DNA from: Roseobacter sp. MED193
GTDB lineage: Bacteria > Pseudomonadota > Alphaproteobacteria > Rhodobacterales > Rhodobacteraceae
Length of the DNA: 64,000 bases
Direction of reading: 5' to 3'
NCBI RefSeq assembly: GCF_000152965.1
Contig: NZ_CH902583.1
Span: forward strand, 3,229,694 to 3,293,693
The notes under the pieces were generated by a model that was not told the origin of the DNA, did not search any database, and saw only the letters and a program-made list of their open reading frames with translations. A program made the translations under genes and the position numbers. This document shows, piece by piece, positions 36,539 to 52,801 of the stretch (positions are counted from its first letter, which is position 1; each line of letters opens with the position of its first letter).

Positions 36539-36806
36539 GTTTGTTTCCTTGCCTGTGCTCATAGCGTCAAAGCGCACCCTGCCGGATTTCCCGGTCATCG
36601 TTATGATTTGGCGAATGATAGCCTGCGGCGGCAGTCATGAAAACCCTATGTCCTGGCATGGCGCGTAAAAGCTCAGTCTTGGGCATTTTCTTGCGTAGTT
36701 CATGCCAAATTGAAGCTTCAAATCAGGGAGTGTTTGGGCGTCGGTACCTAGGGTGAAACTTTCCTCTTGCGTGTCGTCCAATCGCGCCTTAAACCGCCAA
36801 AAGACC

Positions 36807-36896
36807 GGGGAGGTGGCAGAGTGGTCGAATGCGGCGGTCTTGAAAACCGTTGAACGTGAGAGCGTTCCCAGGGTTCGAATCCCTGTCTCCCCGCCA
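36807..36896 (+). tRNA. tRNA-Ser (anticodon TGA)
   Basis: Acceptor GGGGAGG pairs with TCTCCCC, with discriminator G and encoded CCA at 36894-36896. The anticodon stem GCGGT/ACCGT encloses loop CTTGAAA, placing anticodon TGA at 36841-36843. A long variable arm follows, as expected for a class II tRNA, and the T arm GGGTTCGAATCCC is intact. It reads UCA codons. Accessory genes start directly 3' of it, and tRNA 3' ends are common integration sites. Confidence 0.95.
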
Positions 36897-37529
36897 CTTA
36901 CCCTTGAGAAACGTTTCTCCCCATCCGGCTGCGGTCGAGTTTTTCCGTTGTTTTCGAGGGTTATGAGGGAAGGGCTGAGCACTGGCGCTGGCGCAAGGAG
37001 GCCCAAAGGCGTTCTCTTGGGGCCCATATTCTCTGGGCCTAATGACTGCGGCGATTTGGTGTTCAGGTTGTAAGCCTCTGATACAAAATGGTTTACTGTA
37101 AAGTACGGCCAAGCACTTCGACTTCGGTCTCTACCCTATTAATGCGACCCGGTTCCAACCCGCCCGTTGTGGCGATTTCAAAATTCGAGCAAAATCGACG
37201 TTGCGGTCAGGCCGCCGACAATATCCGCAAACATAGGAGGACAACAAAGATCTACCTACTATTTTCTTCGGATTCTGCTGCCGCCCACATTCCGATTTCT
37301 TGGAAACATAACCGAACTCCGGAAAGCTATTTTCATAGGCTGGGCCAAAGCAAATCTGTGATGCTACGGGAACGTCGTGAAGGGGGTAGTTTCTTGGTTG
37401 ATGTTGCATCCGGCTCTTGACCTTCCCTATCTTGCGGCCGACGATATTTTCGCGGGAATGCAGGAACCTGTGTACCGGCGCTTGTCTCCGGTGCGCCAAA
37501 CTTCGATATTTTCGAGGAGATGAAACCAA
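36897..37529. other. Junction region between tRNA-Ser and the defence genes
   Basis: About 630 bases without a convincing gene. It has a small hairpin (GGCCCA/TGGGCC near 37021-37039) with no U-run. An 11-base direct repeat CGATATTTTCG at 37442-37452 and 37504-37514 sits just upstream of the AIPR start and could be a regulatory site. No integrase remnant was recognised. Base composition is lower in GC than the neighbouring operons. Confidence 0.45.
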
Positions 37530-39644
37530 TTGGATGAACTGGTCGAATTCAACAATTCATTGCTTGAGGAAGTCGCAGCAGAAGCATCAGTAAGCGGTAT
37601 TTCACAGGCTGACGCCTTTTTTGAGCGGATGGCGGCCCTTCTGGAGACAGAAGGTGAAATTGCAACGTCTGACCGCGTTAATTTTCTCGCCAACAGTCAC
37701 GGCAAGACCGTTAGGATTGATGGTATCGGCGGCGACCCTCGTGAGTCCGACGGTATACTTAGCGTCATTGTCTGCGATTTTCACGATGGAAATGCGGCGG
37801 TCAAGATCAATGCCAGCGATGCCAAGAAGGCGTTTGGCCACCTGATCAACTTTGTCGCCGCCGCGCGTCGAGCTGCCTTCCGGGAAGACCTGATCGAAGG
37901 GAGCGCTGAAGCGGGTGCCGCTTCGATTATTACTTCGGCGTGGTCATCTATCACAAAGATCAAACTCATTCTTATGACCAATGCGACCTACAGTGCTAGG
38001 ACAGACGCAGTTCTTGCGGGCAAGATTGATGGCATTCCTGTTACCTACAACATCTGGGATCTTACACGTTTTCACCGCTATGAGACGTCCGGACATGCTC
38101 GGGAAAAGATCATCGTCAATTTCCAAGAAGATTTTGGCGGCAGCATCCCAGCGCTGGCTGCATCGAGCAGCGGCGAACACCTCGACAGTTATCTTGTTGT
38201 GATCAGTGGTCATCAATTGGCTGAAATTTATGAGAAATGGGGGGCGCGGCTTTTGGAGTCTAACGTTCGAAGCTTCCTTCAGGCCCGCGGCGCTGTGAAC
38301 CGGGGCATCCGGGACACCATCAAAGATGAACCGGCAATGTTCTTCAGCTATAATAACGGTCTGTCGGTAACGGCCGACAGCGTCGAGGTAGAGAAGACAT
38401 CGGACGGTCTCAGGATCGTGTCCGCGGCCAACCTGCAGGTCGTAAATGGCGGTCAAACCACGGCCTCTCTCCACGCAGCTCGGAAAATCTCGCCAGAAAC
38501 GCTCGAACAAGTCCACGTGCAGATGAAGTTGACAGTTGTTCCGTCGGATACTTCGGAAGAGGTCGTTCCGTTCATCTCGAAATACGCCAACAGCCAGAAC
38601 AAGGTCAGCGCGGCGGATTTCTTCTCGAACCACCCATTCCATATGAGGATGGAAGAATACTCGAGACGAGTATTGGCTCCGGCCGTCGAGGGTACAAACC
38701 GAGAGACCAAATGGTTCTACGAGCGCGCAAGGGGGCAGTACCTTGTCGAGCGCGCCAAGAAAACCCAGGCCGGACGTCGGCGTTTTGATCTAGAAAACCC
38801 TAAACCACAGTACTTCGTCAAAACTGACCTTGCGAAGGTCGAGATGAGTTTCCGCATGCACCCTGACACGGTCAGCAAAGGCGCCCAGAAAAACTTTGGC
38901 GAGTTTGCCCAGACAATCGGGGCGGAATGGAACCGCAGTGACAAGAAGTTCGACGAAACATGGTATCGGCGCCTGATTTCAAAACTGATAATCTTCCGGC
39001 ACCTCGAAAAGACAATTCCGAAACAGCCTTGGTACCCGGGCGGATACCGCGCGAATATTGTGACCTATTCTATATCCAAATTGGTGTCGGACGCGGATGA
39101 ACGGGATCATGTTGTTGATCTTGATGCCGTATGGCGGCGTCAATCGGTATCGCGAGATCTTGGTGATGTATTATTGATTGCGGCGGAAGCGGCAGTAGAA
39201 GTAATAACCCACCCCGAAGCGGGAGTGAACAATATAACAGAATGGGGAAAGAAACAGGCTTGCTGGGCGACCTTGCAGCGGGTTGATATCGACTACGGGC
39301 CTGAATTCATGAACTGCCTCGTTGAGCCAGAGCAGGCCCGTGCTGTTCAAAGAGATGGCCGCCGCGAAGAAGCGGTGATTTCTGGCATCGAGGCGCAGAC
39401 TTCGGTGATTGAGGCCGGAGGCGATTTCTGGAATCGGCTTAGGGAGTGGGGCGGAGCCAAGAGGATATTCAGCCCAAAAGAGGATGGCATACTAAAGGCT
39501 TGCGGCCTTTTTCCGTCCAAGTTGCCGTCGGAAAAACAAGCGGTCATCGCACTCGATCTTCTGGAGCGAGCCCGAGAGGAAGGCTACTCGGACAAGGGCG
39601 AATCTCCGAGGATTCGGATATCCTCCTTGTCACGACAGCACTAG
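37530..39644 (+). CDS. AIPR family (abortive infection/phage resistance) protein
   Basis: A 704-residue protein of the AIPR family. The diagnostic core is present: AVNRGIRDTIKDEPAMFFSYNNGLSV-type wording with FFSYNNG near residue 270 and NLQVVNGGQTTASL near 303, then SKYANSQNKVSAADFFSNHP. AIPR genes were first noted as phage-resistance factors and are often found inside restriction islands, but their biochemistry is unsettled. Start is the TTG at 37530: GAGGAG lies ~10 bases upstream and an in-frame stop lies two codons upstream, so no earlier start is possible. It converges on the methylase operon, with 16 bases between stops. Confidence 0.8.
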   Translation: MDELVEFNNSLLEEVAAEASVSGISQADAFFERMAALLETEGEIATSDRVNFLANSHGKTVRIDGIGGDPRESDGILSVIVCDFHDGNAAVKINASDAKKAFGHLINFVAAARRAAFREDLIEGSAEAGAASIITSAWSSITKIKLILMTNATYSARTDAVLAGKIDGIPVTYNIWDLTRFHRYETSGHAREKIIVNFQEDFGGSIPALAASSSGEHLDSYLVVISGHQLAEIYEKWGARLLESNVRSFLQARGAVNRGIRDTIKDEPAMFFSYNNGLSVTADSVEVEKTSDGLRIVSAANLQVVNGGQTTASLHAARKISPETLEQVHVQMKLTVVPSDTSEEVVPFISKYANSQNKVSAADFFSNHPFHMRMEEYSRRVLAPAVEGTNRETKWFYERARGQYLVERAKKTQAGRRRFDLENPKPQYFVKTDLAKVEMSFRMHPDTVSKGAQKNFGEFAQTIGAEWNRSDKKFDETWYRRLISKLIIFRHLEKTIPKQPWYPGGYRANIVTYSISKLVSDADERDHVVDLDAVWRRQSVSRDLGDVLLIAAEAAVEVITHPEAGVNNITEWGKKQACWATLQRVDIDYGPEFMNCLVEPEQARAVQRDGRREEAVISGIEAQTSVIEAGGDFWNRLREWGGAKRIFSPKEDGILKACGLFPSKLPSEKQAVIALDLLERAREEGYSDKGESPRIRISSLSRQH

Positions 39645-39660
39645 GACAGGATTGTTGGCA

Positions 39661-40092
39661 TCAATGGACCCGCCGCCAGCTGGTCAAACGGATGCGAACG
39701 CCTTGATCAGGGTCAGGCTCTTCAGCGTCTTTCGGTCTGATCCCGATCGAATACTGGTTGCCGAAGCTAACTCGTGATATTTCGAATTCGTCACCTTCTC
39801 GAGCGCCAACGTCCCGAAACCAACTCGTCATGTGTGTAATCCGGTACTCGTTTCTGGTGCCGCCTGGATCGTGAAGGCGGTTGTTGTAATAGACGAAACG
39901 GAATTTCAACGTGTGTCCGGTTTCGTCGGTGCACTCGATCCAAGCGTCAGGGTTCTTTACCTCCGGGTCAAGAGCCGGCAGCATTGCGAGAAGTTCCTTC
40001 TCGCCTTTGGGGATCAAGACGCCGCCTTGGTGTCCACCCGTTGTTCCAACATCATTGGCACTCAGTCGTTTTCGGAATTTCTCACTGCTCAT
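39661..40092 (-). CDS. Stand-alone EcoRII N-terminal-like (B3-fold) DNA-recognition protein
   Basis: A 143-residue protein that matches the N-terminal effector-binding domain of the EcoRII restriction enzyme as I remember it: KRLSANDVGTTGGHQ (8-22), VYYNNRL (67-73) and GTRNEYRIT (78-86) align with the EcoRII blocks KRLSANDTGATGGHQ, IYYNSR and KTRNEKRIT. His21, Arg80, Glu82 and Arg84 fall on residues I recall as contacting CCWGG DNA in EcoRII (His36, Arg94, Glu96, Arg98). The EcoRII catalytic C-terminal domain is absent, so it can recognise but not cut. It is the last gene of the Dcm-Vsr operon and overlaps the SNF2 gene by 4 bases. Likely the specificity subunit. Confidence 0.75.
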   Translation of the reverse strand: MSSEKFRKRLSANDVGTTGGHQGGVLIPKGEKELLAMLPALDPEVKNPDAWIECTDETGHTLKFRFVYYNNRLHDPGGTRNEYRITHMTSWFRDVGAREGDEFEISRVSFGNQYSIGIRPKDAEEPDPDQGVRIRLTSWRRVH

Positions 40093-41900
40093 GACTTCAC
40101 CGGCATTATTTCGAGGGCACGTTTGAGATCATAGGCGTCACGGGTCGACACTGGTACGGTCTCGTTCGCGAGGTCGTTCTTCCAAGCGGACCGATCGATC
40201 ATTACTTCCTCCACGGTATCCAAATAGAAAAGCCGATAGACTGTGACCGGTTCTGTTTGCCCTCTGCGATGTGCCCGTGCACTCGCTTGGGCTTCAAGCG
40301 CGGGATTCCATACCGGCGTGAAATGGATCACAACGGTTGCCGCGGTGATGTTCAGACCCGCACCCGCTGCTTTCGGGTTGAGGACCAAGCAGGCCGACCC
40401 TTCATGGGCAGCGAACAAATCGATGATGGTTTGCCTGTCCTCCTGGGGAGTTGAGCCATTGATCGCTCCCCAATGCGTATCAGGCAAATGGGAACACGCC
40501 TGCTTGAGCAGATCACCGATCCGATTGAAAAGAGCGAAAACAATGACCTTTCTACCATTGGCAAACGCCTCGCGAAGCAGGTCGACTGCCCGCTCCATCT
40601 TGGGTGTGACAAGAGGCATGTCTGCGGCTGGGACTAAAGCTGCACATTCTTCGTTTTCCCCCGAGTTGCGTAACCAGGGATGGGCACAAACGAGCTGCAA
40701 CTGGAGAGTCGCAACAAGAGCGCCCGCGACCGGATATTTCTCCATTGTGGCGTCACGTACATCGCGATAGTGGTCGATCAGCCGGTCGTCGAGTTCGAGC
40801 GGAACATCCACGTCAATCCTTTCCGGTAGATCGCTGGCTACATCCGCGACCCGACGTTTTAGGATAATCGGATCGGTGAGGTGCTTCAGTTGTTGGCCTG
40901 AGTCGAGACTATCAGGAAAACTGCCTTCGAACTCTGATAGATTGCCCAAAAGCCCTGGAATGGCGAAATCCGTCAAAGACCAAAGGTCGACCAAGCTATT
41001 TTCGACCGGAGTCCCGGTCATTGGAATGGCGCGTTTTCGGGGGATGGTTGCGATTGCTTGGCGACGGTTCGATTGCGGGTTCTTGATTGCCTGTGCTTCA
41101 TCGCAAATTACCCAAGACCATTCGAGGCTCGAAAAAATGGCGATATCATTTACCATGGTATCATAGGTTGTGATCAGCACTTGGGACACTTTTAGCCCTG
41201 CAACCACCCCAGTCCTGTGCGCTCCTCTATGAACAGCTACATCCAAGGTCGGCGCGAACCTAGTAATCTCACGCACCCAGTTGGCAATTAGACTGGTGGG
41301 GCAGACAATCAATGCCGGTGCCTGGGGCCCGGGCGGATCGATCATGAGCAGCGCGATGATTTGGAGTGTCTTGCCGAGGCCCATTTCATCTGCGAGGATC
41401 AGGCCGCCAGTTCGGGAGATCGTGTCCCACATCCATTGGACGCCTCTCGCCTGATAGGGAAATAGCTCCGCCTCCAAGCCCGCGATACCGATCGTATCGC
41501 TTTTTAGTTCTGCAGCCTCCTTGCCCGGCTTCATGATCGCTTCCGACGGCGCGGTGGTGATGCCATCCTCATTCGACCTCATGAGTCGGATCGCAGTGCT
41601 GAATGAAATATCAGTGGGATCGACACCGCCGATTTTTTGCACGAGCACCTGCGTCGCATCACGCGGGAGGGGGCGAATTATCGTACCATCGACCACCCAG
41701 CAATGGCGATTGGTTGGGGCTATAAACTCATGTCGCACGCCCCGTACTATTCTGACGCCGCCCAATCGCGCGACGATACGGTTCTCCTCACGCTCAAGGC
41801 GGACAATTGGTTCCAGAAGTCTTTCTGAAATAGTATGACCACCGGGAGGAGCCTCTTTCAGGTCGCCAAAAGACTCGGGGAGTTTCGTGTAGTCAACCAA
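40089..41900 (-). CDS. SNF2-family DNA translocase/helicase
   Basis: A 603-residue SF2 ATPase of the SWI2/SNF2 type. DEMGLGKT (171-178) is the SNF2-style Walker A, DEAQ (267-270) is motif II, MTGTPVENSLVDLWSL is motif III and after, and the C-terminal RecA lobe has ALFNRIGDLL, INGSTPQEDRQ and SARAHRRGQ (arginine finger, motif VI). The N-terminal ~140 residues are unique. Such motors pump DNA in restriction systems (DISARM, type I-like) and remodel DNA-bound proteins. Its start overlaps the HNH gene by 8 bases. Confidence 0.88.
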   Translation of the reverse strand: MVDYTKLPESFGDLKEAPPGGHTISERLLEPIVRLEREENRIVARLGGVRIVRGVRHEFIAPTNRHCWVVDGTIIRPLPRDATQVLVQKIGGVDPTDISFSTAIRLMRSNEDGITTAPSEAIMKPGKEAAELKSDTIGIAGLEAELFPYQARGVQWMWDTISRTGGLILADEMGLGKTLQIIALLMIDPPGPQAPALIVCPTSLIANWVREITRFAPTLDVAVHRGAHRTGVVAGLKVSQVLITTYDTMVNDIAIFSSLEWSWVICDEAQAIKNPQSNRRQAIATIPRKRAIPMTGTPVENSLVDLWSLTDFAIPGLLGNLSEFEGSFPDSLDSGQQLKHLTDPIILKRRVADVASDLPERIDVDVPLELDDRLIDHYRDVRDATMEKYPVAGALVATLQLQLVCAHPWLRNSGENEECAALVPAADMPLVTPKMERAVDLLREAFANGRKVIVFALFNRIGDLLKQACSHLPDTHWGAINGSTPQEDRQTIIDLFAAHEGSACLVLNPKAAGAGLNITAATVVIHFTPVWNPALEAQASARAHRRGQTEPVTVYRLFYLDTVEEVMIDRSAWKNDLANETVPVSTRDAYDLKRALEIMPVKS

Positions 41901-42720
41901 GATGTTCCTCCAGCATGCGCCTAATGTACTCGATATCCCAAGGCACCGGTCGCCGCGTGTGGGCCGCCCGATGACAAGATGGACATAGTGGTAACAGGTC
42001 GGTTGCGGGGTCGTAGGGTTTGGGAGCCGCGATATTTGCTAGTGGCTCCAGATGGTGCACTTCAATTATGCCGCCAGCATCGTCGCCGTAGCGTCGACGT
42101 GGTTCGAGACCACAAGCTGCGCAGGTCTCACCGTGCAAGCGGATGCAGAGAAGCCGGTTGCGAGGGTTGCGCTCACGGCGATTGACGAGAGAAGGCTTTA
42201 TTGCTCCTTCGAATGCTGGCTCATCGCAGATCACGTCATCTTCGACCACGTCGTACCCGATGAGTTCGGCCATCGCCGCCATCATGGGCACGATCACTTC
42301 GCGGCAGGTATGGGAAACTGCTTCATCCGAGTCGGGTCGAACGTCGTGCCGTATTGTTGCAGCCATACGGAAAGAGCCATCGTTTACAGTCCAGTCATCG
42401 AGCGCCTGTGCCGAAATGGAAAGGCTCGCGGCTTGATCAATGGATGCGACCAGTGCCATGGCCAGCTGTCGATCCTCGGCCGACGCCTGACGAATCTGGC
42501 GAATAACGGCACCGGAGAAATTTCCGAATGCCAAGTTGACGCGATGTGCTTTGAGACCGTGGGGTCTAATTTCCGCGACGGGACCGTGCTGCTGGTCAAG
42601 GTCATCGAACCATATTTTCATGCCAGAGCGCAGCCCGCCATTGTCTATGGCGACTGCAATGACGGCACCAGTGCCTTCCTCCAGTTCACGAACGATGAGT
42701 TCCTGTTTCGCTGCCAGCAT
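41893..42720 (-). CDS. HNH endonuclease
   Basis: A 275-residue protein. The C-terminal ~80 residues form a Cys4-type HNH nuclease: Cys200-x2-Cys203, EVHHLEPL (220-227) with His222/His223, and DLLPLCPSCHRAAH (241-254) with Cys246, Cys249 and the last His254. The pattern is complete, so it is probably active. Residues 1-180 are an unassigned domain with alternating strands at the start and helices later. Similar architecture is seen in McrA-like restriction nucleases. One-base overlap with the GHKL gene and 8 with the SNF2 gene. It is the only obvious double-strand nuclease in the operon besides Vsr. Confidence 0.85.
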   Translation of the reverse strand: MLAAKQELIVRELEEGTGAVIAVAIDNGGLRSGMKIWFDDLDQQHGPVAEIRPHGLKAHRVNLAFGNFSGAVIRQIRQASAEDRQLAMALVASIDQAASLSISAQALDDWTVNDGSFRMAATIRHDVRPDSDEAVSHTCREVIVPMMAAMAELIGYDVVEDDVICDEPAFEGAIKPSLVNRRERNPRNRLLCIRLHGETCAACGLEPRRRYGDDAGGIIEVHHLEPLANIAAPKPYDPATDLLPLCPSCHRAAHTRRPVPWDIEYIRRMLEEHLG

Positions 42721-44351
42721 CAGTCGTCATCATCTTCTGCCAGTTCGCCTGGTTCAGGATCAGGTAAGTTCCGCAGAAGTTTACGTAGGTTGTTTGATAT
42801 CTCGGTGCGGATATCTTCGAAAATGGGTTCGAGTTCGTCATTTGTATTGTTCTGTTCGGCCGCTGCGAATGCCCACAGCAAAAGGTCCATTCCTTCCACT
42901 GCATATCCGTTTGCAGCGGCTCGCTGATAAATTTTCTGGTAATAGTCGTGGTGTTTATTCAAAAGAACGGACGGCACATGCCCGTCGTTTCCGGTGCTCC
43001 GGAAAGCTGGTTGCCAGAGTTCCCCACTATTGATCGATTCAACCGCTTCAACATGCACGTAATCGGGGCTGACATTGTTCTGGATCGGTGACTTGATCCG
43101 GATCTTCGGGCCCATGTTGTTGGATATCTCCGCAGACTGGCCTTCTGGATCCACGGACGTCACCTGTGCCTTCGTGGCATTCGTCGTCGCCGCGATGTTC
43201 TTATTGGAACTACCGTGATCCACTTTGTTTTTCGCATTGGCCTGCGCTCTGCTCTGCCTCCGATAGCGGTTCCCTGCCTCACGGTATATTGGCTGTAGAA
43301 GCGTTCGGAGGCCGTCCTCGAGATCAGGGTGGAAAAGAATGCGAGATTTTTTCACATCGATTCTGAAAGCGTCGTCCAGTTCATGTCCAAAATCAAACTC
43401 GATCCTCAAAAGGGAAGTGTGAGGTTCGGGCGCGCCGAAGACATCCATCCAGCCGCCATCTTGGATTAACCGTCCCTCGCGGAATACGTAGAAGCCTTGA
43501 GCCCGGTTCGAGATACGGGCGTATTCACGTTCCTCATCCTTTGTCATGTCGCGACGGTGTGGAAGAATCCATGCGTGGATCGTGGCACGTTCCTCCGAGC
43601 CATCCGGCATCTCAACCAATAGTGTCTGCTTTTTTAGTGGAAGAACCTGTTCTGACCTTTTGGGGTAGAAAGGATTCCACGGCACAACTGGGCTGCTGTT
43701 AATGAAAATTTCTATATCCCGCTCGCGCTTATCGGATTTGTCGGTAAAGCGGTGGTAAACTAATGAGAGATGTTTGCTGAGGGTGTCAGCCAGCCGCTTG
43801 ATTGCAGCTTGTTCCTTGGTCCCCCCCGCTTCGTATTCTTTGGACAAGATCCGGTCACACTTTTCCCAAATTACGAGGGTTCCCGTGTCGCCGCAGAGTT
43901 CTTCGAACATTTCTTCTTCATCAGACGATACCGGCTCGCGCAGCATTTCCCACCTGCCGCGTTCCTTCACATGATCGAGATCCCATGCAAGTTTTACCAA
44001 AGGCTGCTCTGTGGTAGCCCGCGAAACGATGGTGAATTTCAAGCAGACCGAACTTGAAGCCGTCTTGAGCCCGAGCCCGAATTTTCCCAGGCTTTCAGGG
44101 TTCTCGCGTACAGGCGCGCCGTAGCGCATAGCGCGATGGATCGTTTCTTCATCCATCCCGACACCGTTGTCGCCAAAATAGACCAGTTTTCTTCCGTCTT
44201 CGTGAAGGACAATCTCGACATTGATGTGGTCGGCTTTGGCAGCAATCGAATTGTCAATAATATCGGCAGCGGCGGTCTTTACATTGTAACCAGTGTCGCG
44301 CAGACCGAATATCAGGCGCGGGGCATCCGGTTCATTTATCAGGTCATTCAT
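42720..44351 (-). CDS. GHKL ATPase (MORC/MutL/Hsp90-like)
   Basis: A 543-residue protein from the ATG at 44351, preceded by GAGGAAGAGCAGG; an open extension to 44399 is unlikely. The Bergerat ATP fold is clear: N-box DIIDNS (30-35), G1 DNGVGM (61-66) and G2 GKFGLGLKTAS (89-99). The S5-like second domain follows (~190-330). The C-terminal part is unassigned and ends very acidic (EPGELAEDDDD). MORC/MutL-type ATPases close like clamps on DNA, and bacterial ones have been noted in operons with cytosine methylases and Vsr. It may signal between recognition and cleavage. Confidence 0.85.
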   Translation of the reverse strand: MNDLINEPDAPRLIFGLRDTGYNVKTAAADIIDNSIAAKADHINVEIVLHEDGRKLVYFGDNGVGMDEETIHRAMRYGAPVRENPESLGKFGLGLKTASSSVCLKFTIVSRATTEQPLVKLAWDLDHVKERGRWEMLREPVSSDEEEMFEELCGDTGTLVIWEKCDRILSKEYEAGGTKEQAAIKRLADTLSKHLSLVYHRFTDKSDKRERDIEIFINSSPVVPWNPFYPKRSEQVLPLKKQTLLVEMPDGSEERATIHAWILPHRRDMTKDEEREYARISNRAQGFYVFREGRLIQDGGWMDVFGAPEPHTSLLRIEFDFGHELDDAFRIDVKKSRILFHPDLEDGLRTLLQPIYREAGNRYRRQSRAQANAKNKVDHGSSNKNIAATTNATKAQVTSVDPEGQSAEISNNMGPKIRIKSPIQNNVSPDYVHVEAVESINSGELWQPAFRSTGNDGHVPSVLLNKHHDYYQKIYQRAAANGYAVEGMDLLLWAFAAAEQNNTNDELEPIFEDIRTEISNNLRKLLRNLPDPEPGELAEDDDD

Positions 44352-44411
44352 CCTGCTCTTCCTCTCTCCAGCGTCGTTCCGACAATCTGGATTTATCAAT
44401 CAAAAAATTTC

Positions 44412-44858
44412 TCACCTATTTGGTATTTCGCCGAAAACCTCTTTTCCGCGCAACCAAGCTGCGATCTTGCCTATGAGATCTTCTAGGGATAAGCGCTTCG
44501 TCGCACATTCCCAAACTGTCAGTACGCGCCACCCTGATGCGGTAAGCGTTTGTGCAGTTTTCTGATCACGTTCGACATTTTTTTCCAACTTTTCTCGCCA
44601 AAATTCAGTTCGGGTTTTTGGCAATCTAAAATATGAGCAACCGTTGTGCGCGTGCCAGAAGCAACCGTGAACGAAAAGTGCTGCACGGTATTTCGGCAAC
44701 ACGAGATCGGGCTTGCCTACAAGATGGCGGCTGTGGAGACGGTACCTGAACCCGAGACCATGCAATCCCTTGCGGACAATCATCTCGGGCTTTGTATCTT
44801 TTGGTCTAATCCCAGCCATCATTTCCGATCTGGACATCGGTGATCGTTTCTCAGGCAC
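44412..44858 (-). CDS. vsr: Very short patch repair endonuclease
   Basis: A 148-residue Vsr protein. Asp51 (GKPDLVLP), His64 and His69 ([11 protein letters not shown]) match the catalytic residues of E. coli Vsr at the same numbers; the zinc ligands near His71 and Cys66/Cys74 are also present, and the mismatch-binding [13 protein letters not shown] is conserved. Vsr nicks next to T in T:G mismatches formed by deamination of 5-methylcytosine at methylase sites. It overlaps the Dcm-like gene by 8 bases, so it protects that enzyme's sites. Confidence 0.95.
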
Positions 44859-45924
44859 TTTGGTTTCTCCGCGGCCTCAATGCGACAGTATTTTCAATCC
44901 ATGGGGCCATGGCTTCGGCGATCGCTATTGCGACCGGTGCCGCAACCGCATTGCCGAATTGACGGTACGCCTGTGCGTCGGAAACCGGGATGTTCCATGG
45001 GCGGTTGGAGCCGGGACGGTCGAAACCCATGAGACGGGCGCATTCGCGTGGCGTCAGTCGCCGAGGGTTCTTCCCGGGTTGCGCGATCAGGATTTCTGAC
45101 CCGTCCTTGTAATACCTTGCGCTTAGTGTCCGGGCGACGCTTTCGGGAGTGCATAGGCCGAAGCCGAAGCCGTTACCGGCTGCTTTATGTTTTGCGGCGT
45201 AATTTTGGAGGTAGGCCCAAAGCTTGTCAGACAGTGTGTACTTGTCGGCAATACGCGCTAGGTGACCTTCTGTATAGGGCGGCTCGGCGATCTCGGACCC
45301 GTTCTCGGGATGAAGAATGTCCGAAAGCCGTGGGTTCGGTCCCGGAGGGATCACCACATCGTCGAGGCAGAAACGCGTGGGAACATCGCGACGGAAGCCC
45401 GAGATAAATATGCGCTCACGGTGCTGTGGCACCCAAGAGCGTGCGTCTATCACTTTGTGATCCACCTCGTAACCGAGTTCGTCAAGCGCATGTAGGATGA
45501 CCCTCATGGTGTTACCCTTGTCATGGGACAGCAGATTCTTGACGTTTTCCAGAAGGAAGGCGCGCGGGCGATGATGGGCAATGATTCTCACGACATCAAA
45601 AAAGAGCGTTCCTTGGGTCTCATCTAGAAAGCCGTGAGCACGGCCCAGTGAGTTCTTTTTGCTTACTCCGGCGATGCTGAAAGGCTGGCATGGGAAGCCA
45701 GCAAGCAAGACATCGTGAGCTGGAATTTCCGCTTCTGAAATTTCCGTGATGTCACCACTGAGCGGGTGTTCGTCCCCGAAATTCGCAGAGTAGGTTTCCT
45801 GCGAGAAGCGGTTCCACTCGCTAGTGAAAACACAGGTTCCGCCGGCAGCTTCGAAACCAACGCGTAAACCTCCGATACCGGCAAAAAGATCGATGAAACT
45901 AAAACTACTCGGCGATTTGTGCAT
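44851..45924 (-). CDS. dcm: Dcm-like DNA (cytosine-5) methyltransferase
   Basis: A 357-residue 5mC methyltransferase from the ATG at 45924, with GAGAGGG six bases upstream; the open extension to 46050 is not conserved-looking. Motif I FAGIGG (14-19), motif IV GFPCQPF with nucleophile Cys79, ENV (126-128), QHRER (167-171), and C-terminal motif IX/X with RQFGN (321-325). Long blocks match E. coli Dcm, including [25 protein letters not shown], and in the target-recognition region [11 protein letters not shown]. This strongly suggests CCWGG methylation. First gene of the defence operon. Confidence 0.9.
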
Positions 45925-46187
45925 GTACTGACCCTCTCTGATGGTACCATATCTAGCTTTCAATCCAGATGGAATAACAAGAGTTGCGGAATAAAGCATG
46001 AACATCTGGGTGGTCCAAGAATCCCTTCCGCCACGGACAGACTCGAACATCAGTCGTTTTGGCGGTCGCCTTGCAGAAATTCGGTGAACACGCGGGTTGA
46101 CTTGGAGTTGTACTGAAATGCAGCTGCGCTCACCTTTGAAAAATTGCAGAGCGTCACGAATGCAATCGCGGCCTCTAGATTAGTCCG

Positions 46188-46571
46188 CTAGCCAAAGCGT
46201 TCCAGCTGTTGTCGCCAATCCATCGGTAATGGCTCCAGAAGCCACGCCAGCGTCAGATCCGGTCCCTGCGTCCCGTCGAGAACCACTTCGACGATATCCG
46301 GCGCGAGCAGTGTCAGGCGTAGGACACGGGTCATGTAGGACGGCGCGATTCCTTCGCTATCCGCGAGCTCGGCGATGGTCGTGAACTCGCCGGATTTCAA
46401 CATCCTTTTCCATCGAAACGCTCGCGCCAGCGCCTTGACCAGCGTGCCGTCTGTTTTCTGTTGGCGCGGAGCGTCAGGGGGTAGCTGCATTTCTTTACGG
46501 CCACCACGTTTCACGATTCGGAACGGGATGTGCACTGTCACCGTTTCCGAGACTGGTTTCGCGCGGGTCAT
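46188..46571 (-). CDS. Small helix-turn-helix protein of the recombinase cassette
   Basis: A 127-residue protein. Residues ~65-95 (TIAELADSEGIAPSYMTRVL) form a helix-turn-helix similar to that in ParB/KorB-like proteins. This family regularly follows the DUF2924 and serine-recombinase genes in alphaproteobacterial prophages and islands. It overlaps the recombinase stop by 4 bases. Probably an accessory DNA-binding factor for recombination or its control; no experimental role is known to me. Confidence 0.7.
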   Translation of the reverse strand: MTRAKPVSETVTVHIPFRIVKRGGRKEMQLPPDAPRQQKTDGTLVKALARAFRWKRMLKSGEFTTIAELADSEGIAPSYMTRVLRLTLLAPDIVEVVLDGTQGPDLTLAWLLEPLPMDWRQQLERFG

Positions 46572-47875
46572 GCCGCCGCTCCGAGATCAGCCATCATTTC
46601 GTGCGCCAATCCGGTCAGACCATCCATTCGGAGGCGCACATCAAGGCCATCAACACCTATATCGATCCGCTCGATCAGCAGCGCTGCGATGCGCGCCTGT
46701 TCGGCGGGGAAAAGTTCATCCCACAGTGGGTCCAGTTGTTGCAGCGCCACACGTGCGTCGCCCTCGGTGACCTCGCCGTCCTGCGCGCGCGCCTCTTTCC
46801 ATGTACCCGCCACGATTTCGGGTTGGCGGAACACGGAGCGGAGCTGGTTGATGACGGCGGCTTCTATCTCGCCAGCGGGAACACGTCCGATCTCGCAGGT
46901 TCCCGCACCGTGTTTCAGAATGGTCTGGCTGACATAGTAGCGATAGAGTTTGCCACCCTTGCGCGTGTGTGTCGGGGAGAAGGCTGCACCGTCAGGACCA
47001 TATAGCAGCCCTTTCAGCAGCGCAGGTGTGTCCGCACGGGTGCGGGCGGCGCGCTTGCGGGGGCTTTCTTTCAGAACCGCATGAACCTTGTCCCATATAT
47101 CGCGGTCAATGATGGCATCATGCTCGCCGGGATAGCTGTCTCCTTTATGGACCGCTTCTCCGAGATAGGCACGGTTGTTCAGCATGCGATAGATGAATTT
47201 CTTGTCCATCGCGTTGCCTTTCGGGGTACGAATGCCTTTTGCCGCAAGTTCGCGCGCCAAAACAGTACCAGAACCAATACGAATGAAACGCTCAAAAGCC
47301 CAGCGGACGATGCTGGAGCGTTCTTCATCCACCACCAGTTTTCTGTTTTCAACGCGGTATCCGAAAGGCGGCACCCCGCCCATCCACATGCCCTTCATCC
47401 GGCTGGCGCGGAATTTGTCACGGATGCGTTCGGCCGTGACCTCGCGTTCGAATTGGGCAAAACTGAGCAAGATGTTCAGGGTCAGCCGCCCCATGGAGGT
47501 GGTGGTGTTGAATGACTGGGTGACGGATACAAAGGTCACGTCGTTACGGTCGAATACCTCGACCAGCTTGGAAAAATCCATCAGCGCCCGTGACAGGCGG
47601 TCGATCTTGTAGACGACGACAACATCCACCAATCCATCTTCGACGTCGGCGAGCAGCTGTTTCAGGCCCGCCCGCTCCAGCGTGCCGCCGGAGATGCCGC
47701 CGTCATCATATTGATCGCGCACCAGCACCCAGCCCTCGGACCGCTGGCTGGCGATGTACGCCTCGCAGGCCTCGCGTTGGGCGTGCAGGCTGTTGAATTC
47801 CTGCTCCAGCCCTTCCTCCGAGGATTTGCGGGTGTAGATGGCGCAGCGCAGTTTGCGGATGATCGGTTTGCTCAT
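46568..47875 (-). CDS. Serine recombinase (site-specific integrase)
   Basis: A 435-residue recombinase. The resolvase catalytic domain starts AIYTRKSSEEGLEQEFNSL; the nucleophile is a serine in RKSS. KIDRLSRALMDF, LLSFAQFEREVTAERIRDK and the recombinase domain (PPFGYRVENRKL, GKRTPKGN-like IRTPKGNAMDKKFIYRML) follow. The zinc-ribbon region (~300-330) lacks the usual cysteines. It is shorter than phage phiC31-type integrases. It probably integrates the element reading right from here, and is the mobility gene of the window. It overlaps DUF2924 and HTH genes by 4 bases each. Confidence 0.9.
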   Translation of the reverse strand: MSKPIIRKLRCAIYTRKSSEEGLEQEFNSLHAQREACEAYIASQRSEGWVLVRDQYDDGGISGGTLERAGLKQLLADVEDGLVDVVVVYKIDRLSRALMDFSKLVEVFDRNDVTFVSVTQSFNTTTSMGRLTLNILLSFAQFEREVTAERIRDKFRASRMKGMWMGGVPPFGYRVENRKLVVDEERSSIVRWAFERFIRIGSGTVLARELAAKGIRTPKGNAMDKKFIYRMLNNRAYLGEAVHKGDSYPGEHDAIIDRDIWDKVHAVLKESPRKRAARTRADTPALLKGLLYGPDGAAFSPTHTRKGGKLYRYYVSQTILKHGAGTCEIGRVPAGEIEAAVINQLRSVFRQPEIVAGTWKEARAQDGEVTEGDARVALQQLDPLWDELFPAEQARIAALLIERIDIGVDGLDVRLRMDGLTGLAHEMMADLGAAA

Positions 47876-48324
47876 GTTGATCTCCGATGGTTTTTCAACC
47901 CGAAGAACACCCAGCCATTCCAGCGCGTGCCGGTTATCGCGCGGGCAATGGCCGAGAGCGACTTGTACGGTCGCCCCTGCCAGTCGAAGCCGTCAGCGGT
48001 GACGGTGACGAGATGTTCGACGCCTTGCCATTCACGGATCAGGCGCGTGCCGACGATGGGCATCAGATCCGCACGGATGCGGCTTTTCTTGCGATCACCG
48101 CCGTCCAGCTGTTCGCCAAGAACTTCAAGCCGCTTGACCGTTTGCGGCTTCAACCCGCCATAGGCGAGTTCCTGAATTCGATAGGCCAACCGGCTTTCCA
48201 GATAGCGGCGGTTGAACGGCGGCGGCTCGCTGTCAAACAGCTCGCGCCATTGCTGTTTCAGGTCCGGTGTCGAAGTGGATTTCAGCGCCGCCAGGCGCGC
48301 GGGGATGGGATCGGGTTTGGTCAT
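47872..48324 (-). CDS. DUF2924 domain protein
   Basis: A 150-residue protein of the DUF2924 family, recognised by PPPFNRRYLESRLAYRIQE and RIRADLMPIVGTRLIREWQG-type wording followed by YKSLSAIARAITGTRWNGW. The last part resembles the DNA-binding domain attached to some recombinases. In alphaproteobacterial mobile elements it is nearly always next to a serine recombinase, as here. Likely a recombination directionality or accessory factor; this role is inferred. Confidence 0.8.
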   Translation of the reverse strand: MTKPDPIPARLAALKSTSTPDLKQQWRELFDSEPPPFNRRYLESRLAYRIQELAYGGLKPQTVKRLEVLGEQLDGGDRKKSRIRADLMPIVGTRLIREWQGVEHLVTVTADGFDWQGRPYKSLSAIARAITGTRWNGWVFFGLKNHRRST

Positions 48325-48524
48325 GCGGGTCTCCGTTTGGTTGGAGTTGCACTACCGCTCTGGTCGACCGAGTTGTGTAGCGGAAATTCTCCATTTGTTG
48401 CAGAGATTTGCGGAATGTCTCGTGACCGCAAACGAACGAGACCAGCCGCCAGTAGACCACAAAGTTCGGCCCGGCGTCCGGTGGGTGTCATCAGTTCAGG
48501 CGGTAGGGCGTTTGGGCGTTTCAT
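48321..48524 (-). CDS. Small conserved protein upstream of DUF2924
   Basis: A 67-residue protein with RAELCGLLAAGLVRLRSRD near residue 20-36, followed by a polar tail. Small proteins of this type precede DUF2924 genes in related recombinase cassettes. It overlaps DUF2924 by 4 bases. No function is known; it appears to be the first gene of the four-gene minus-strand cassette. Confidence 0.55.
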   Translation of the reverse strand: MKRPNALPPELMTPTGRRAELCGLLAAGLVRLRSRDIPQISATNGEFPLHNSVDQSGSATPTKRRPA

Positions 48525-48715: not shown

Positions 48716-50890
48716 ATGGCGAGCAAGAATTCCAAAACCGGCCCTTTGCTGCACAGTCTTGTCGAGGATGCTCCGAGCAATCTTGTCCGTGAGCTCGTTT
48801 CATTGCCGCGAGGGGAAAACGAAATTGAAATCGTTTTGCCGTTAGAAGAAACGGGGGACGAGGAATTCCGCCAGAAATTATTGGAAACGTTATCTGAATT
48901 TGATCACGATGATTTGCGGCCGTTGGAGCATAGATGCCGGCGGATTCATTTGCTTGCTGAGGGAAAAGGCGTTTCATCTCTCGAAACAATTGTCGATCAG
49001 AGATTGGATGACGAACAACATGGGCAATACTCAAGCCAGCAAGATCCGATTTGCAGAAGTGTCTGGATCTTTCTGAATCATCGCCAAGCATTCCAGGATG
49101 CGGAGAGCTTCCATTATGCTCGTCAATTCCGTGATCATGGCAAATTATATGACGCCTTTGAGGTTGAATTGGAAAATGCCGTAAGTATCGATGCGGCCGC
49201 AATCGACGAACCTGCGTTGGCGTCGAAAATCACCGAGGTCCTCGAACTCAAAACGGCTTGCACCGTCAAGGCGCTTGATTTGCCGGCAACGGACCCACAT
49301 CCCGCGTCGATCATGCTGATTGTTCGGCACGGCGGTCCATTGTCGAGCGTTCACGATCATCGTGACGATGGACGGCGCGGAACGATCTATTTCCGGCCAC
49401 CGAACGAGGCGACATTGATCTATACCCCGTCGAAGCGGCAGATCGAAATCTGTGCCGACAGCCCGGTCGTCCGGCAGAAGGTGGGTGATGCCTTTGCCGA
49501 AGTGACACTTGAACACGACATTTCTCAGAAACCGTTGACCTGGAAGCGCTACAACCTCGGTCGATTTCGATCGTCCCTGACACTTCCAATCCCGGAGATC
49601 GACGGCTTCGAGATCCAGGTGGCGCGGGTTCTGGAGGTGGAAGTCCGCCTGGGCCATTGGAGCCGAAAGCTGGCTCTCAAGGTTGCTATAGGTGATGATA
49701 TCCAGGACGTCGCAACCAAATACCTTGGCAGGGGTAACATCTTCAGGCGCGCTGACAGCTTCAGCCGCATCGGTATCGCGGTCAAATACAACCAATCTGG
49801 CGATGACAAGGAGCGGTCCCTTAATATCACTGTGTCGGGGGCCAAAAGCTGCAATCTCCAGAGCAACAAAGATCCGGACGAGCGCAACTTTGGATTCGCA
49901 CTGTTACACGAATGGGGAATCCTGAGTGCATTCCGTCAGGTCGACAATGGCGATTTGCGCTCCATGTTGCCGCAACTGGTGGATCTGTATGATCGCGAGG
50001 AAGACGAGGTTTCCGGCGGCTATCTCGCCGAAATCGGTCTCGATCCCGGACGACTGATAGAAGGCGGTCTGCTTGAACGGCGTGATAGGCAAGACGTCGT
50101 CCTCATCGACGAAGACGACATCAATGGCGAGGTTGCGCTGAAACCCTCATCGACCCCTGGCCAGGTTCAGGCAACAGGTCCGTTCGGCGAGGATGCAGGG
50201 AGGCGCCCGGTTGCAGACCTGGAACGTTACCAGATCAATCGCGAATGGCTGCAAGAAACCGTGGTAAAACTCGTGCGACCGCTGCTTACGAGCAAGGGGA
50301 CGCAGGTCATCGATCAGGATCTGATTCTGTTGGGGAACATGGGCACCGATGGAGCCAGCACCCCGGTCTATTTCGCGCGGCGGCTGGGCGATCCGGTGAT
50401 CATCAACAAACTGGACCAGCTTCTGAGGGCTCGGAATATGTCCGGGATCGGTGTTGTCCTGTCGTCCAGCCCAGAGACCCTGACATGTCTGGGCCCCAAC
50501 GTCGTGGTTCCATTGCTCTCACATCTTGAAGGGGAAGGAACCGAACAAGCGTTGTCCCGGGATGCGGTTATGCAAACCTTTGATACCGGGCGGAACTTTG
50601 CATTGGGCGGCAGCACGGTGGCAGTTAACAAATCCGGAACCCAATCCGCATCATTGTGCATTCCCGGAAAAGCACCACTGGCCATTCTTGGAGCAAATCA
50701 GATCCGGATCTTCGAAAAACTGGTTGCAGCCCATCTGGCTGGAAGCCCGGACGTGAAAACGGCGGAGCTTATTGAGGACACCGGGGTCAAAAGCCCACAG
50801 CAGGCATTCAAGAAGCCGATGTGGGATAGCATTCTCGACGTCTACATCGCCAAGGGACCAACGCGCGGTTACTGGCGTCTCGCAGGCTAG
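48716..50890 (+). CDS. Large protein of unknown function in the prophage region
   Basis: A 724-residue soluble protein that I do not recognise. It is acidic overall, with no membrane segments, P-loop or nuclease motif that I can see. Residues ~210-330 are strand-rich, with RGTIYFRPPNEATLIYTP and WKRYNLGRFRSSLTLPIPE. A long helical segment and a C-terminal part near 540-724 could be a winged-helix-rich module (QIRIFEKLVAAHLAG). GAGG lies ~8 bases before the ATG. It sits alone between the recombinase cassette (opposite strand) and the replication genes, a place where accessory defence or regulator genes are often carried. Confidence 0.75.
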   Translation: MASKNSKTGPLLHSLVEDAPSNLVRELVSLPRGENEIEIVLPLEETGDEEFRQKLLETLSEFDHDDLRPLEHRCRRIHLLAEGKGVSSLETIVDQRLDDEQHGQYSSQQDPICRSVWIFLNHRQAFQDAESFHYARQFRDHGKLYDAFEVELENAVSIDAAAIDEPALASKITEVLELKTACTVKALDLPATDPHPASIMLIVRHGGPLSSVHDHRDDGRRGTIYFRPPNEATLIYTPSKRQIEICADSPVVRQKVGDAFAEVTLEHDISQKPLTWKRYNLGRFRSSLTLPIPEIDGFEIQVARVLEVEVRLGHWSRKLALKVAIGDDIQDVATKYLGRGNIFRRADSFSRIGIAVKYNQSGDDKERSLNITVSGAKSCNLQSNKDPDERNFGFALLHEWGILSAFRQVDNGDLRSMLPQLVDLYDREEDEVSGGYLAEIGLDPGRLIEGGLLERRDRQDVVLIDEDDINGEVALKPSSTPGQVQATGPFGEDAGRRPVADLERYQINREWLQETVVKLVRPLLTSKGTQVIDQDLILLGNMGTDGASTPVYFARRLGDPVIINKLDQLLRARNMSGIGVVLSSSPETLTCLGPNVVVPLLSHLEGEGTEQALSRDAVMQTFDTGRNFALGGSTVAVNKSGTQSASLCIPGKAPLAILGANQIRIFEKLVAAHLAGSPDVKTAELIEDTGVKSPQQAFKKPMWDSILDVYIAKGPTRGYWRLAG

Positions 50891-50988: not shown

Positions 50989-51237
50989 ATGCCGACTCCC
51001 GATCACCATCGCCGTCCAGCGCGACAGACCGGTTCCACACCCCGCCAGGGCGGGCCGACCAACACCCCAACAAATGACTGGCGCTGCACGCGCTGTGACA
51101 AGCTGCTCGGAGTTTTCCGGGACGGCGGCATGCACCTGCGTTTTGCCCGGGGGCACGAGTATTTTGTCGGCTTTCCCGTCGTGGCCACCTGCCGCGGTTG
51201 CGGGACGTTGAACCAGACGACGGCTCCGATGCGCTAA
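50989..51237 (+). CDS. Com-like zinc-finger protein
   Basis: An 82-residue protein from the ATG at 50989 (GAGGAG eight bases upstream). The core WRCTRCDKLLG, then HEYFVGFPVVATCRGCGTLN gives a CxxC...CxxC zinc ribbon, similar to Com of phage Mu. Mu Com activates translation of the DNA-modification gene mom. No mom-like gene is visible here. The N-terminal ~35 residues are a disordered polar tail. Regulator of RNA or DNA binding; target unknown. Confidence 0.65.
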   Translation: MPTPDHHRRPARQTGSTPRQGGPTNTPTNDWRCTRCDKLLGVFRDGGMHLRFARGHEYFVGFPVVATCRGCGTLNQTTAPMR

Positions 51238-51334
51238 GGCGCACTCTCTAAATCCCATGAAATCAAAGAGACGCGCGACGTCCTGACCTGGCCACGACAA
51301 GGCGCTGGACGCCTGGCCGCAAGGCAGGCGTCCA

Positions 51335-52057
51335 ATGTCCTTCGCATGGCACGAAATCCGTGATCATCTCATGAAATCCTCTTCTACGCTGGGCTTCCAG
51401 CATAGCTTCGAAGCAATCAGGCGTGCGGGTCACCCCGTCGCTCAATACCGCGATCCGACCGCGTTGTTGGACTGTCTTCATCAAGGCTCCGACGGCGCGG
51501 ATCACAAGAACCTGATCCTCGCGGCATTGGTCCGGGAAGCACAATCAAACGGTCCCGGTGGCGATTGCGCCCTGACGTTGATGTTGCTGTCACTCTGGCC
51601 TGGGTTGGACGCCGTCCGGCGCCGGTCGCTTTGGCGCAAGATAGGAACCCCTGATGAGGTTGCCTCGGAAATCCTCGCCCGAACCACAGAGGCGATCCGC
51701 GGCCTTGATCTGCGGCGGGTCACCCGGATTGCAGCCACCATCCTGCGAAACGTCGAGCGAGACATCATCCGAATGCGTCAGCGCGAGGACAGGCACCAGA
51801 ACCTGCGCAGTGAGATCGACCCCGACGAAGTCCCGATCGATGCTGGCGTATCAAATCCTTCCGCCAGCCAGAATCTGCTGCACAGCGATCTCGCCCGCAT
51901 CACCGGGAAGGATGCCGGTCTGGTGATCCGAGTGGCCATCGACGGCTTCTCCCAGGCCGAAGTCGCGACCGAATTGGGGCTGTCTGAAGCCGCAACGCGC
52001 AAACGCTATCAGCGGGCGACCCGGCGATTGCGGACTGGTTTGCAAGAAATCGGCTGA
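51335..52057 (+). CDS. Sigma-70-like regulator
   Basis: A 240-residue protein with sigma-factor-like order: a helical region 2-like segment with RKIGTPDEVASEIL and ERDIIRMRQREDR, and a C-terminal region 4-type helix-turn-helix ending FSQAEVATELGLSEAATRKRYQRATRRL. The N-terminal ~60 residues are not sigma-like. It could direct prophage gene transcription. Promoters it might read, such as the repeats near 62603-62641, are speculative. Confidence 0.6.
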   Translation: MSFAWHEIRDHLMKSSSTLGFQHSFEAIRRAGHPVAQYRDPTALLDCLHQGSDGADHKNLILAALVREAQSNGPGGDCALTLMLLSLWPGLDAVRRRSLWRKIGTPDEVASEILARTTEAIRGLDLRRVTRIAATILRNVERDIIRMRQREDRHQNLRSEIDPDEVPIDAGVSNPSASQNLLHSDLARITGKDAGLVIRVAIDGFSQAEVATELGLSEAATRKRYQRATRRLRTGLQEIG

Positions 52058-52139
52058 CCCGATGTCCCGATCTCTGCGGCGTGGTGGCTTTTCCCATTCA
52101 GACGCCACCGCGCTCACCCCAAACCGAAAGCTGACGAGC

Positions 52140-52385
52140 ATGATCAGAAACACCGATCCAATGTCCGAAGATCTCAAACGCATCCCAGGACTCTACCGTC
52201 GCTGGGAATTGCCGGAGATCCTGAAAAACCACCGCACTTACCGCATCGAGAAGGCTGGCACCCATCAGGATGGGACCCCGCTTGTCGCCATCTATGCCGA
52301 CGGCGCCAACAACGAAACTGCCTCTCCCGACGACACCGACCCGCCCATGGTTCTGCTTGGGACGAGTTCGTCTGGGCGAGGCTAG
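52140..52385 (+). CDS. Small hypothetical prophage protein
   Basis: About 81 residues from the ATG at 52140 (MIRNTDPMSED); the frame is open from 52062 and a later ATG at 52161 is possible. It is polar and acidic at the end, with RRWELPEILKNHRTYRIEKA and GTPLVAIYAD. No family recognised. It lies in the tandem gene row that starts with the Com-like gene. Confidence 0.5.
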   Translation: MIRNTDPMSEDLKRIPGLYRRWELPEILKNHRTYRIEKAGTHQDGTPLVAIYADGANNETASPDDTDPPMVLLGTSSSGRG

Positions 52386-52403
52386 AGGCCTGAAGAGGAG
52401 ACC

Positions 52404-52757
52404 ATGTTCATGGATATCACACCCATCGTCACGGTTCGCGCCAGCCGACCGCTTACCGAAATCGAGTTCTGCGCCTGGGTGGCGCAAGCCGCTCCCGGTG
52501 ACCGGCTGGAGTATCACTGCGGCTTTCTCGTGCTCGACACTTTCGCGCTGTTTTCACGGCTCGACGATCAGGGCCGCGGCGAACTGAGCAAGCTGGCCGG
52601 GCGGGCGTTCTGGGCTGCCGAACAGGGGCTCGTGCATTTGGTGCAGGAGCGGATCGCACCGGACCAGTTCGCTTACGTCGCCATCGCCAGACCAAAGCCG
52701 AACGCGGCCTCTGTCTCGCTATCCGAGCTGTTGCTCGCCGAACAAGAGGCCGCGTGA
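52404..52757 (+). CDS. Hypothetical prophage protein
   Basis: A 117-residue protein, start ATG at 52404 with GAGGAG upstream. It contains LTEIEFCAWVAQAAPGDRLEY and HCGFLVLDTFALFSRLDD, with an amphipathic C-terminal helix. No known domain. Its stop overlaps the next frame, indicating coupled translation in the replication operon. Confidence 0.65.
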   Translation: MFMDITPIVTVRASRPLTEIEFCAWVAQAAPGDRLEYHCGFLVLDTFALFSRLDDQGRGELSKLAGRAFWAAEQGLVHLVQERIAPDQFAYVAIARPKPNAASVSLSELLLAEQEAA

Positions 52758-52801
52758 TGACCGCATTTCAATCCTTTTTCCCCGATCACGGAGACCCTTT
52801 C

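Follow-up and report, generated by a model that had tools for sequence, protein, structure and literature searches.

The stretch analysed here (the window) comprises 64,000 nucleotides of Roseobacter sp. MED193 (assembly GCF_000152965.1, contig NZ_CH902583.1, positions 3,229,694-3,293,693). It contains a minus-strand operon encoding a Dcm-like methylase, a Vsr endonuclease, a GHKL ATPase, an HNH nuclease, an SNF2 ATPase and an EcoRII-N-like protein, which faces a gene of the AIPR family. An earlier reading of this DNA, the original prediction, had described this layout, and all seven genes were found where it had placed them:

37530..39644, plus strand: AIPR protein, related to MzaE, exchangeable accessory, 704 amino acids (aa) in the longest frame, ending in PRIRISSLSRQH
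39606..39641, plus strand: C-terminal tail of the AIPR protein, 12 residues
39661..40092, minus strand: EcoRII-N-like protein (stand-alone, B3 fold), 143 aa, predicted to read CCWGG (Pfam EcoRII-N, E 3.3e-17)
39664..39699, minus strand: C-terminal tail of the EcoRII-N-like protein, 12 residues, VRIRLTSWRRVH
40089..41900, minus strand: SNF2-family ATPase, 603 aa, predicted DNA translocase (Pfam SNF2-rel_dom, E 3.8e-54; Helicase_C, E 1.4e-16)
41893..42720, minus strand: HNH nuclease with an N-terminal domain of unknown fold, 275 aa (Pfam HNH, E 4.6e-4, just below the cut-off)
42720..44351, minus strand: prokaryotic MORC-family GHKL ATPase, 543 aa when read from the ATG at 44351, with the longest frame extending to 44399 (Pfam HATPase_c_3, E 2.1e-24)
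44412..44858, minus strand: Vsr endonuclease, 148 aa (NCBIfam vsr, 153.1 bits, cut-off 97.85)
44851..45924, minus strand: Dcm-like cytosine-5 methyltransferase, 357 aa, longest frame to 46050 (Pfam, E 5.8e-81)

Six of the seven proteins score above the Pfam cut-off for the named family, and the HNH protein reaches 20.7 bits against a cut-off of 21.4. The genes are packed as had been predicted, with overlaps of 4 bp (EcoRII-N/SNF2), 8 bp (SNF2/HNH), 1 bp (HNH/GHKL) and 8 bp (Vsr/Dcm), all within the expected 1-8 bases; the vsr/GHKL pair is free of overlap, with a gap of 12 bp for the longest frame or 60 bp from the ATG at 44351. The AIPR and EcoRII-N genes converge with 16 bp between their ends, and the proposed Dcm start at 45924 gives a protein of 357 aa, a length common to many relatives. 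In the MED193 genome (4.67 Mb, 4 contigs), AIPR has a single match, and of the three matches to cytosine methylases two are nearly full-length.

A scan of contigs with the HNH protein yielded 33 related loci, designated by L numbers, from 131 pattern stretches, a number that is a lower bound. Most appear to be from Rhodobacterales, and others are from Pseudomonas, Burkholderia, Serratia, Dechloromonas, Massilia, Alcanivorax and several metagenome-assembled genomes. In 31 of the 33 loci the genes for GHKL, HNH, SNF2 and EcoRII-N-like proteins follow one another in this sequence on a single strand, and the operon arrangement, whose recurrence in other genomes had been put forward as a check, is thus more than chance. 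At L043 the contig end cuts the core within GHKL and leaves a fragment, and at L056 only residues 110-275 of HNH are present, with no convincing match to any core protein, GHKL included, in the 554 bp to the contig end. The SNF2 gene is found in all 33 loci, Dcm in 30 (missing in L036, a 7.3-kb contig, and at the contig ends of L043 and L056) and Vsr in 29 (missing in the same three and in L052), with the position and direction of Dcm and Vsr varying among loci. The pairwise distances of the four core proteins correlate with one another at 0.84-0.92 and those of Dcm with those of Vsr at 0.82, whereas core proteins correlate with Dcm or Vsr at 0.47-0.73; for AIPR (10 sequences) against the other proteins the values are 0.64-0.85. 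This supports the multi-subunit unit of the original prediction as one that is co-inherited. Sequence comparison shows a co-inherited four-gene core that travels with a Dcm-type methylase, usually with Vsr, and with one of several accessories. The system is rare: HNH matches occur in 18 of 385 genomes of the class, with whole-protein coverage in the window's genome only, EcoRII-N matches in 17 of 394 family genomes, and short stand-alone EcoRII-N-like frames (148-161 aa) in 7 of these 394, the window's included. Distant variants on plasmids (L105-L108) have the order SNF2, EcoRII-N-like, GHKL and HNH together with Vsr, Dcm and a neighbouring gene annotated as a type II restriction endonuclease.

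The neighbour of the core changes from locus to locus. Nine of the 33 loci carry AIPR, eight carry f1 (a blastp cluster of unnamed proteins of ~720 aa), seven carry the DISARM genes DrmB and DrmA, and nine have none of these, a class that includes L036, L047 and L056, where flanks are short and a neighbour may be missed. With a presence in 9 of 33 loci, AIPR was rejected as a fixed part of the system and is better described as an exchangeable accessory. The single f1 copy that was scanned gave no PADLOC match and a weak match to sigma-70 region 4, and f1 occurs in 2 of 295 family genomes, both times beside an EcoRII-N-like gene. In the seven DISARM-type loci a UvrD-like helicase accompanies DrmB and DrmA, all three being named from the L044 copies. 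An MzaA-like ankyrin-sigma protein stands in L030 in addition to the AIPR under which that locus was counted, and an EcoRII-C restriction enzyme (Pfam) adjoins the core in L033, with a relative in L029. Core loci from family genomes add DrmB-DrmA (L114), an f1 remnant (L115), AIPR (L116) and f1 (L117). On a tree of 40 core sets, built by a quick method and labelled by us as AIPR, f1, DISARM, AIPR with MzaA or other, the accessory label changes at least 7 times, the AIPR loci are not monophyletic, and three of them are the sister group of the DISARM-linked loci; L115 entered this tree as 'other', before its f1 remnant was recognised. DrmB, DrmA and a UvrD/GajB-like helicase are convergent with the core in L042, L044, L045, L046, L049, L050, L051 and L114, so that one Dcm may serve both the DISARM genes and the MORC core.

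Comparison of the protein ends revealed a feature that the original prediction had missed and that is new here. A similar basic tail closes the C-terminus of the EcoRII-N-like protein (RIRLTSWRRVH), of the core-linked AIPRs (RIRISSLSRQH) and of f1 (RIMLRGFRRQH); over the last 13 residues the net charge averages +4.1, +3.1 and +3.7, respectively. The 12 C-terminal residues of 2608 frames (100 codons or longer; 43 loci, the window left out) were ranked by likeness to the tail of the window's EcoRII-N-like protein: ranks 1-39 were EcoRII-N-like proteins, ranks 40-54 were AIPR or f1 (rank 54 being the L115 f1 remnant) and rank 55 was unrelated. A fixed pattern, written like the other tail patterns after the tails had been seen, matched 89 of 4090 frames (loci and window), by inspection all of them ends of EcoRII-N-like proteins, AIPR, f1 or f1 remnants; these are not 89 independent genes, since the loci overlap. 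In the extracted sets the pattern covers 33 of 34 EcoRII-N-like proteins, 9 of 9 AIPRs (L030 excluded beforehand) and 5 of 7 complete f1, the other two ending in LRGFRRTH and LRGFRRVH. In the L115 f1 remnant (2419-2711), pieces of both f1 ends match and the tail is readable.

AIPRs from elsewhere served as a control. PF10592 matches were found in 53 of 394 family genomes, and among the 30 best, read stop to stop, the tail is carried by three core-linked AIPRs, all beside an EcoRII-N-like gene (the window, L088 from the Seohaeicola strain of L024, and L089 from the same place as L116), and by none of the other 27. These 27 include ~50% identical proteins that stop where the tail would begin, as well as L093, which has an in-frame stop, L104, which is short, and L097, which adjoins an EcoRII-N match in a 422-aa frame. 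Among the 30 AIPR matches listed for plasmids (97 matched records), the only one to align through the last residue is the core-locus copy. Altogether the tail is present on 15 of 16 core-linked AIPRs (window, nine of the 33 loci, L057, L116 and L120-L123), the exception being L030. An origin as a by-product of convergent gene ends was ruled out, because the tail persists in L038 and L057, whose AIPR genes sit upstream and run in the same direction, and f1 genes, too, run in the same direction. Tails from the same locus also matched better than permuted pairs did, with p 0.0003 for 17 loci with near-duplicates and later-found loci left out (f1 loci 0.02, AIPR loci 0.21), p 5e-5 for all 24 loci with both tails (f1 0.011; AIPR, 15 loci, 0.21) and p 1e-4 for 18 representatives (f1 0.020; AIPR, 10 loci, 0.25), kinship being uncorrected. 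The tail likeness itself has statistical support, and docking is what we infer from it. In L030 (9453-9887), one protein is similar to the front part of the ankyrin-sigma protein next to it and closes with a copy of the EcoRII-N-like tail whose last residues are altered. A tail-like stretch within the GHKL protein, GPKIRIK, was dropped, as little of it is conserved.

An AlphaFold model of the EcoRII-N-like protein (28 of 34 sequences in the alignment) has a predicted local distance difference test score (pLDDT) of 84.3, and its best Foldseek match is 3hqf, EcoRII-N with DNA (E 1.6e-6); plant B3 domains, including RAV1 1wid, are matched as well. By an eye count, 18 of the 22 columns that are invariant over residues 1-87 of 28 sequences are identical in EcoRII 3hqf, those that differ being L41, H74, G78 and Y83, and EcoRII position 88 (R88A in entry 1na6) is Arg or Lys in these proteins. 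No EcoRII-C catalytic domain is present in the protein, Pfam giving EcoRII-N only. The site of EcoRII is CCWGG (PMC4081073), and the B3 fold together with the EcoRII-like invariant residues makes the original suggestion, CCWGG sensing by this protein with self-protection by Dcm, plausible. In the model, residues 127-132, just before the tail, have pLDDT values below 50 and a short strand lies at 139-142, so the tail is loosely attached or lies outside the B3 core. As side observations, L029 (5066-6019) encodes a single protein fusing a weak EcoRII-N match with an HNH_2 nuclease, and a protein of ~130-150 aa in L028, L034 and L036 clusters with the L033 EcoRII-C enzyme and looks by eye like a second B3-type reader; its L036 copy gave no Pfam or PADLOC match.

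We propose that AIPR and the unrelated f1 join the machine through their basic tails. These tails would copy that of the B3 protein, so that both would bind the same socket; candidates for it are the N-terminal domain of HNH, the MORC protein and also the B3 protein. If AIPR and f1 carry a copy of the DNA reader's tail, helpers may be swappable in evolution by tail capture, and the idea of a restriction machine with a standard socket, into which unrelated effectors or regulators can be exchanged, appears to us evenly poised. It is possible, with a clearly smaller probability, that the core is restriction-like and the tail instead signals degradation, binds DNA as a peptide, or is a B3 strand that the neighbours captured without functional need: the basic charge would also fit DNA binding, the short strand at 139-142 would fit a B3 element, and the tail-like end on the L030 ankyrin protein suggests that capture can occur. 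This is countered by the retention of the tail at the extreme C-terminus of two unrelated families across divergent loci, by its absence from the 27 unlinked AIPRs and by several matching B3 structures of 102-113 residues, which indicate that the tail is not needed to complete the B3 fold.

Motifs of the SNF2, HNH, Vsr and Dcm proteins are conserved among relatives. Vsr aligns with Vsr 1cw0 (E 3.8e-34); Dcm matches a type II methylase (490.9 bits) and DrmMII (438 bits) in PADLOC, and in NCBIfam PRK10458 at 426.4 bits (below the cut-off of 710) and the dcm superfamily at 297.9 bits (above the cut-off of 100.65). AIPR is matched by Pfam AIPR (E 8.7e-100) and AIPR_N (E 1.1e-31) and by PADLOC MzaE (E 5.5e-78), and finds no solved-structure sequence up to E 1. 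In the HNH protein (model pLDDT 84.8), the HH, C..C and CP.CHR positions are invariant in 27 sequences (27 of 34 aligned). A fold search with its N-terminal domain gave nothing at E 0.001 or below, the best E being 0.09, with weak matches to type III secretion chaperone-like proteins that are a lead at most. HNH pieces repeated in opposite directions at the start of the L123 contig (1-1428) were set aside as probably an assembly chimera. The GHKL protein has conserved glycine-rich motifs and the MORC motif GFYVFREGRLI, conserved as QGFY..ReGRlI in 32 sequences; its best solved-structure sequences are those of MORC2 (E 1.4e-4), and weak MutL matches were also found.

The MORC2 match raises an unlikely alternative, namely that a MORC clamp and SNF2 remodelling silence or compact target DNA, or that the system acts on modified DNA, with no cutting at unmethylated CCWGG. 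It would draw further on the HNH protein, whose single match among solved sequences is 6ghc, a 5-methylcytosine-specific enzyme (E 0.0014), and whose single PADLOC match is a type IV model. The 6ghc match is limited to the HNH module (residues 184-258), and both the invariance of the HNH positions and the presence of Dcm in 30 of 33 loci weigh against this alternative.

The operon lies in a block of DNA that appears to have been transferred, further components of which are:

36807..36896, plus strand: tRNA-Ser(UGA), start of the shared block
46568-47875, minus strand: recombinase of the transferred block, so named from its sequence
47872-48324, minus strand: DUF2924 of the transferred block (Pfam)

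In comparison with a Seohaeicola relative, identity is ~92-93% over window positions 36806-48517, versus ~71-73% in the left chromosomal flank, and the left edge of the block (36806) is the edge of the tRNA gene. A Sulfitobacter locus has the same block at 85%, also with tRNA-Ser at its edge. The block contains the operon, a small unknown gene, the recombinase and DUF2924, and the last two have relatives arranged alike in L024 and L026. Both Seohaeicola and Sulfitobacter also match the window beyond 51 kb (52043-52888 at 89% and 51076-52560 at 76%), and the mobile region may therefore extend further. In the window's own genus, one genome carries this tRNA and, over the 17 kb examined, no such block. 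No copy of the tRNA 3' end was found elsewhere in the window with words of 15-24 bases. Plasmid copies of the system occur in Pseudomonas putida (with AIPR) and Fuscovulum ytuae (with f1), and four viral contigs carry it, all four with AIPR and the tail. From these sequences, we conclude that the system moves horizontally. Two further observations concern the surroundings. A 724-aa protein at 48716-50890 has no Pfam, PADLOC or NCBIfam match at E 0.01 and a 29% relative near the same block in L026, and positions 63368-63999 match the flank of the same system in viral contig L120 at 76%, a hint that DNA close to the end of the window is prophage-related.

This distribution bears on whether the genes could instead serve housekeeping repair, built on Vsr and a MutL-like ATPase, with no role in defence. 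The pairing of Vsr with a GHKL ATPase that has weak MutL matches is in keeping with such a role, which is nonetheless highly improbable in view of the sporadic occurrence of the short stand-alone EcoRII-N-like frame (7 of 394 family genomes), the copies on plasmids, in viral contigs and in a tRNA-bounded block, and the alternation of DISARM or AIPR genes as neighbours.

Our preferred reading, to which we assign a probability of roughly 60%, is that of a mobile, restriction-like defence directed at CCWGG, with helpers docking through the tail. The B3 protein would recognise incoming DNA by its unmethylated CCWGG, the motor (SNF2) and the clamp (MORC) would act on this DNA, and HNH would cut it, while Dcm would shield host DNA and Vsr would repair deaminated 5-methylcytosine. 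Several observations weigh against this. Five AIPR or f1 tails (L117, L052, L027, L116 and L041) rank below the first unrelated C-terminus, the AIPR of core locus L030, a divergent copy ~3.4 kb away, has no tail, the tail is not at the ends of the DrmB, DrmA and UvrD-like proteins beside the core, and the B3 protein of distant variants L105-L108 ends differently. The same-locus tail match has no significance within the AIPR loci, kinship being uncorrected, and much of the overall signal is therefore the difference between f1 and AIPR loci. The HNH score lies just under the Pfam cut-off. In the alignment with MORC2, the window's GHKL protein has Asp at the position of the general-base Glu, as do at least 80% of 32 sequences, so that its ATPase activity is an assumption.

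The kind of system is already known from Iyer 2008 (PMC2292703). The claim that no described system has this combination is not supported: the MORC operons treated by Iyer 2008 include SWI2/SNF2 helicases, HNH or EcoRII-like nucleases, VP1/RAV (B3) proteins, methylases and Vsr, DNA looping is proposed for them, and the legend of Figure 2 explains AIPR (PMC2292703, relevant passages). The S5 motif of that paper's SNF2 group, GhXhhpXXRhl, is matched position by position by GFYVFREGRLI; the group's SWI2/SNF2 helicase gene is present in the operon and in all 33 related loci; the HNH or EcoRII-like nuclease corresponds to the window's HNH protein (20.7 vs 21.4 bits, with invariant HH and Cys/His positions); the VP1/RAV (B3) protein of some members corresponds to the fold matching 3hqf and RAV1 1wid; and a cytosine methylase with Vsr occurs in both. 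Iyer 2008 presents gene neighbourhoods, and no fixed core with a swap-in slot and no common tail were found in its text, figures aside.

Mza is similar in that the window's GHKL and AIPR proteins are related to MzaB and MzaE; the matches reach 181.9 bits against an NCBIfam cut-off of 850 and 350.6 against 1050, respectively, no MzaA is among the PADLOC matches listed for ten window proteins, and SNF2, EcoRII-N and HNH belong to the core here. A Z1-based system with AIPR is likened to Mza in the passages of Miller 2022 concerned (PMC9523054). DISARM methylates CCWGG, according to the section of a review (PMC5957327); the window's Dcm matches DrmMII (438 bits) and its SNF2 matches DrmD models in PADLOC, and 7 of 33 related loci, as well as L114, have DrmB and DrmA next to the core, but neither is among the PADLOC matches listed for ten window proteins (best 25 of 35 for SNF2, best 25 of 62 for Dcm). 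EcoRII (Type IIE) shares its N-terminal domain family with the EcoRII-N-like protein, which differs in being separate, with its own tail and no EcoRII-C domain. The paraMORC-like histidine kinases near restriction-modification genes in the pertinent part of PMC8011034 are not this system, and no description of it was found in passages of PMC12458937 and PMC12409349. In the literature searched we found no paper with EcoRII-N and SNF2, or with EcoRII-N, CCWGG and N-terminal domain, and no named system of this make-up, the nearest being those in the relevant portions of PMC2292703 and PMC9523054. Neither the fixed core with its swap-in slot nor the link to DISARM nor the common tail was found in that literature.

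Eukaryotic MORC ATPases are chromatin proteins, and their bacterial relatives were proposed in 2008 to act in restriction systems (PMC2292703, relevant passages). That proposal would become testable in a bacterial system this compact, with its predicted DNA site, motor, clamp and nuclease. If the tail is indeed common to unrelated partners, it would provide a short, deletable handle on the recruitment of accessories in modular defence systems, and it may serve as a search key for more members.

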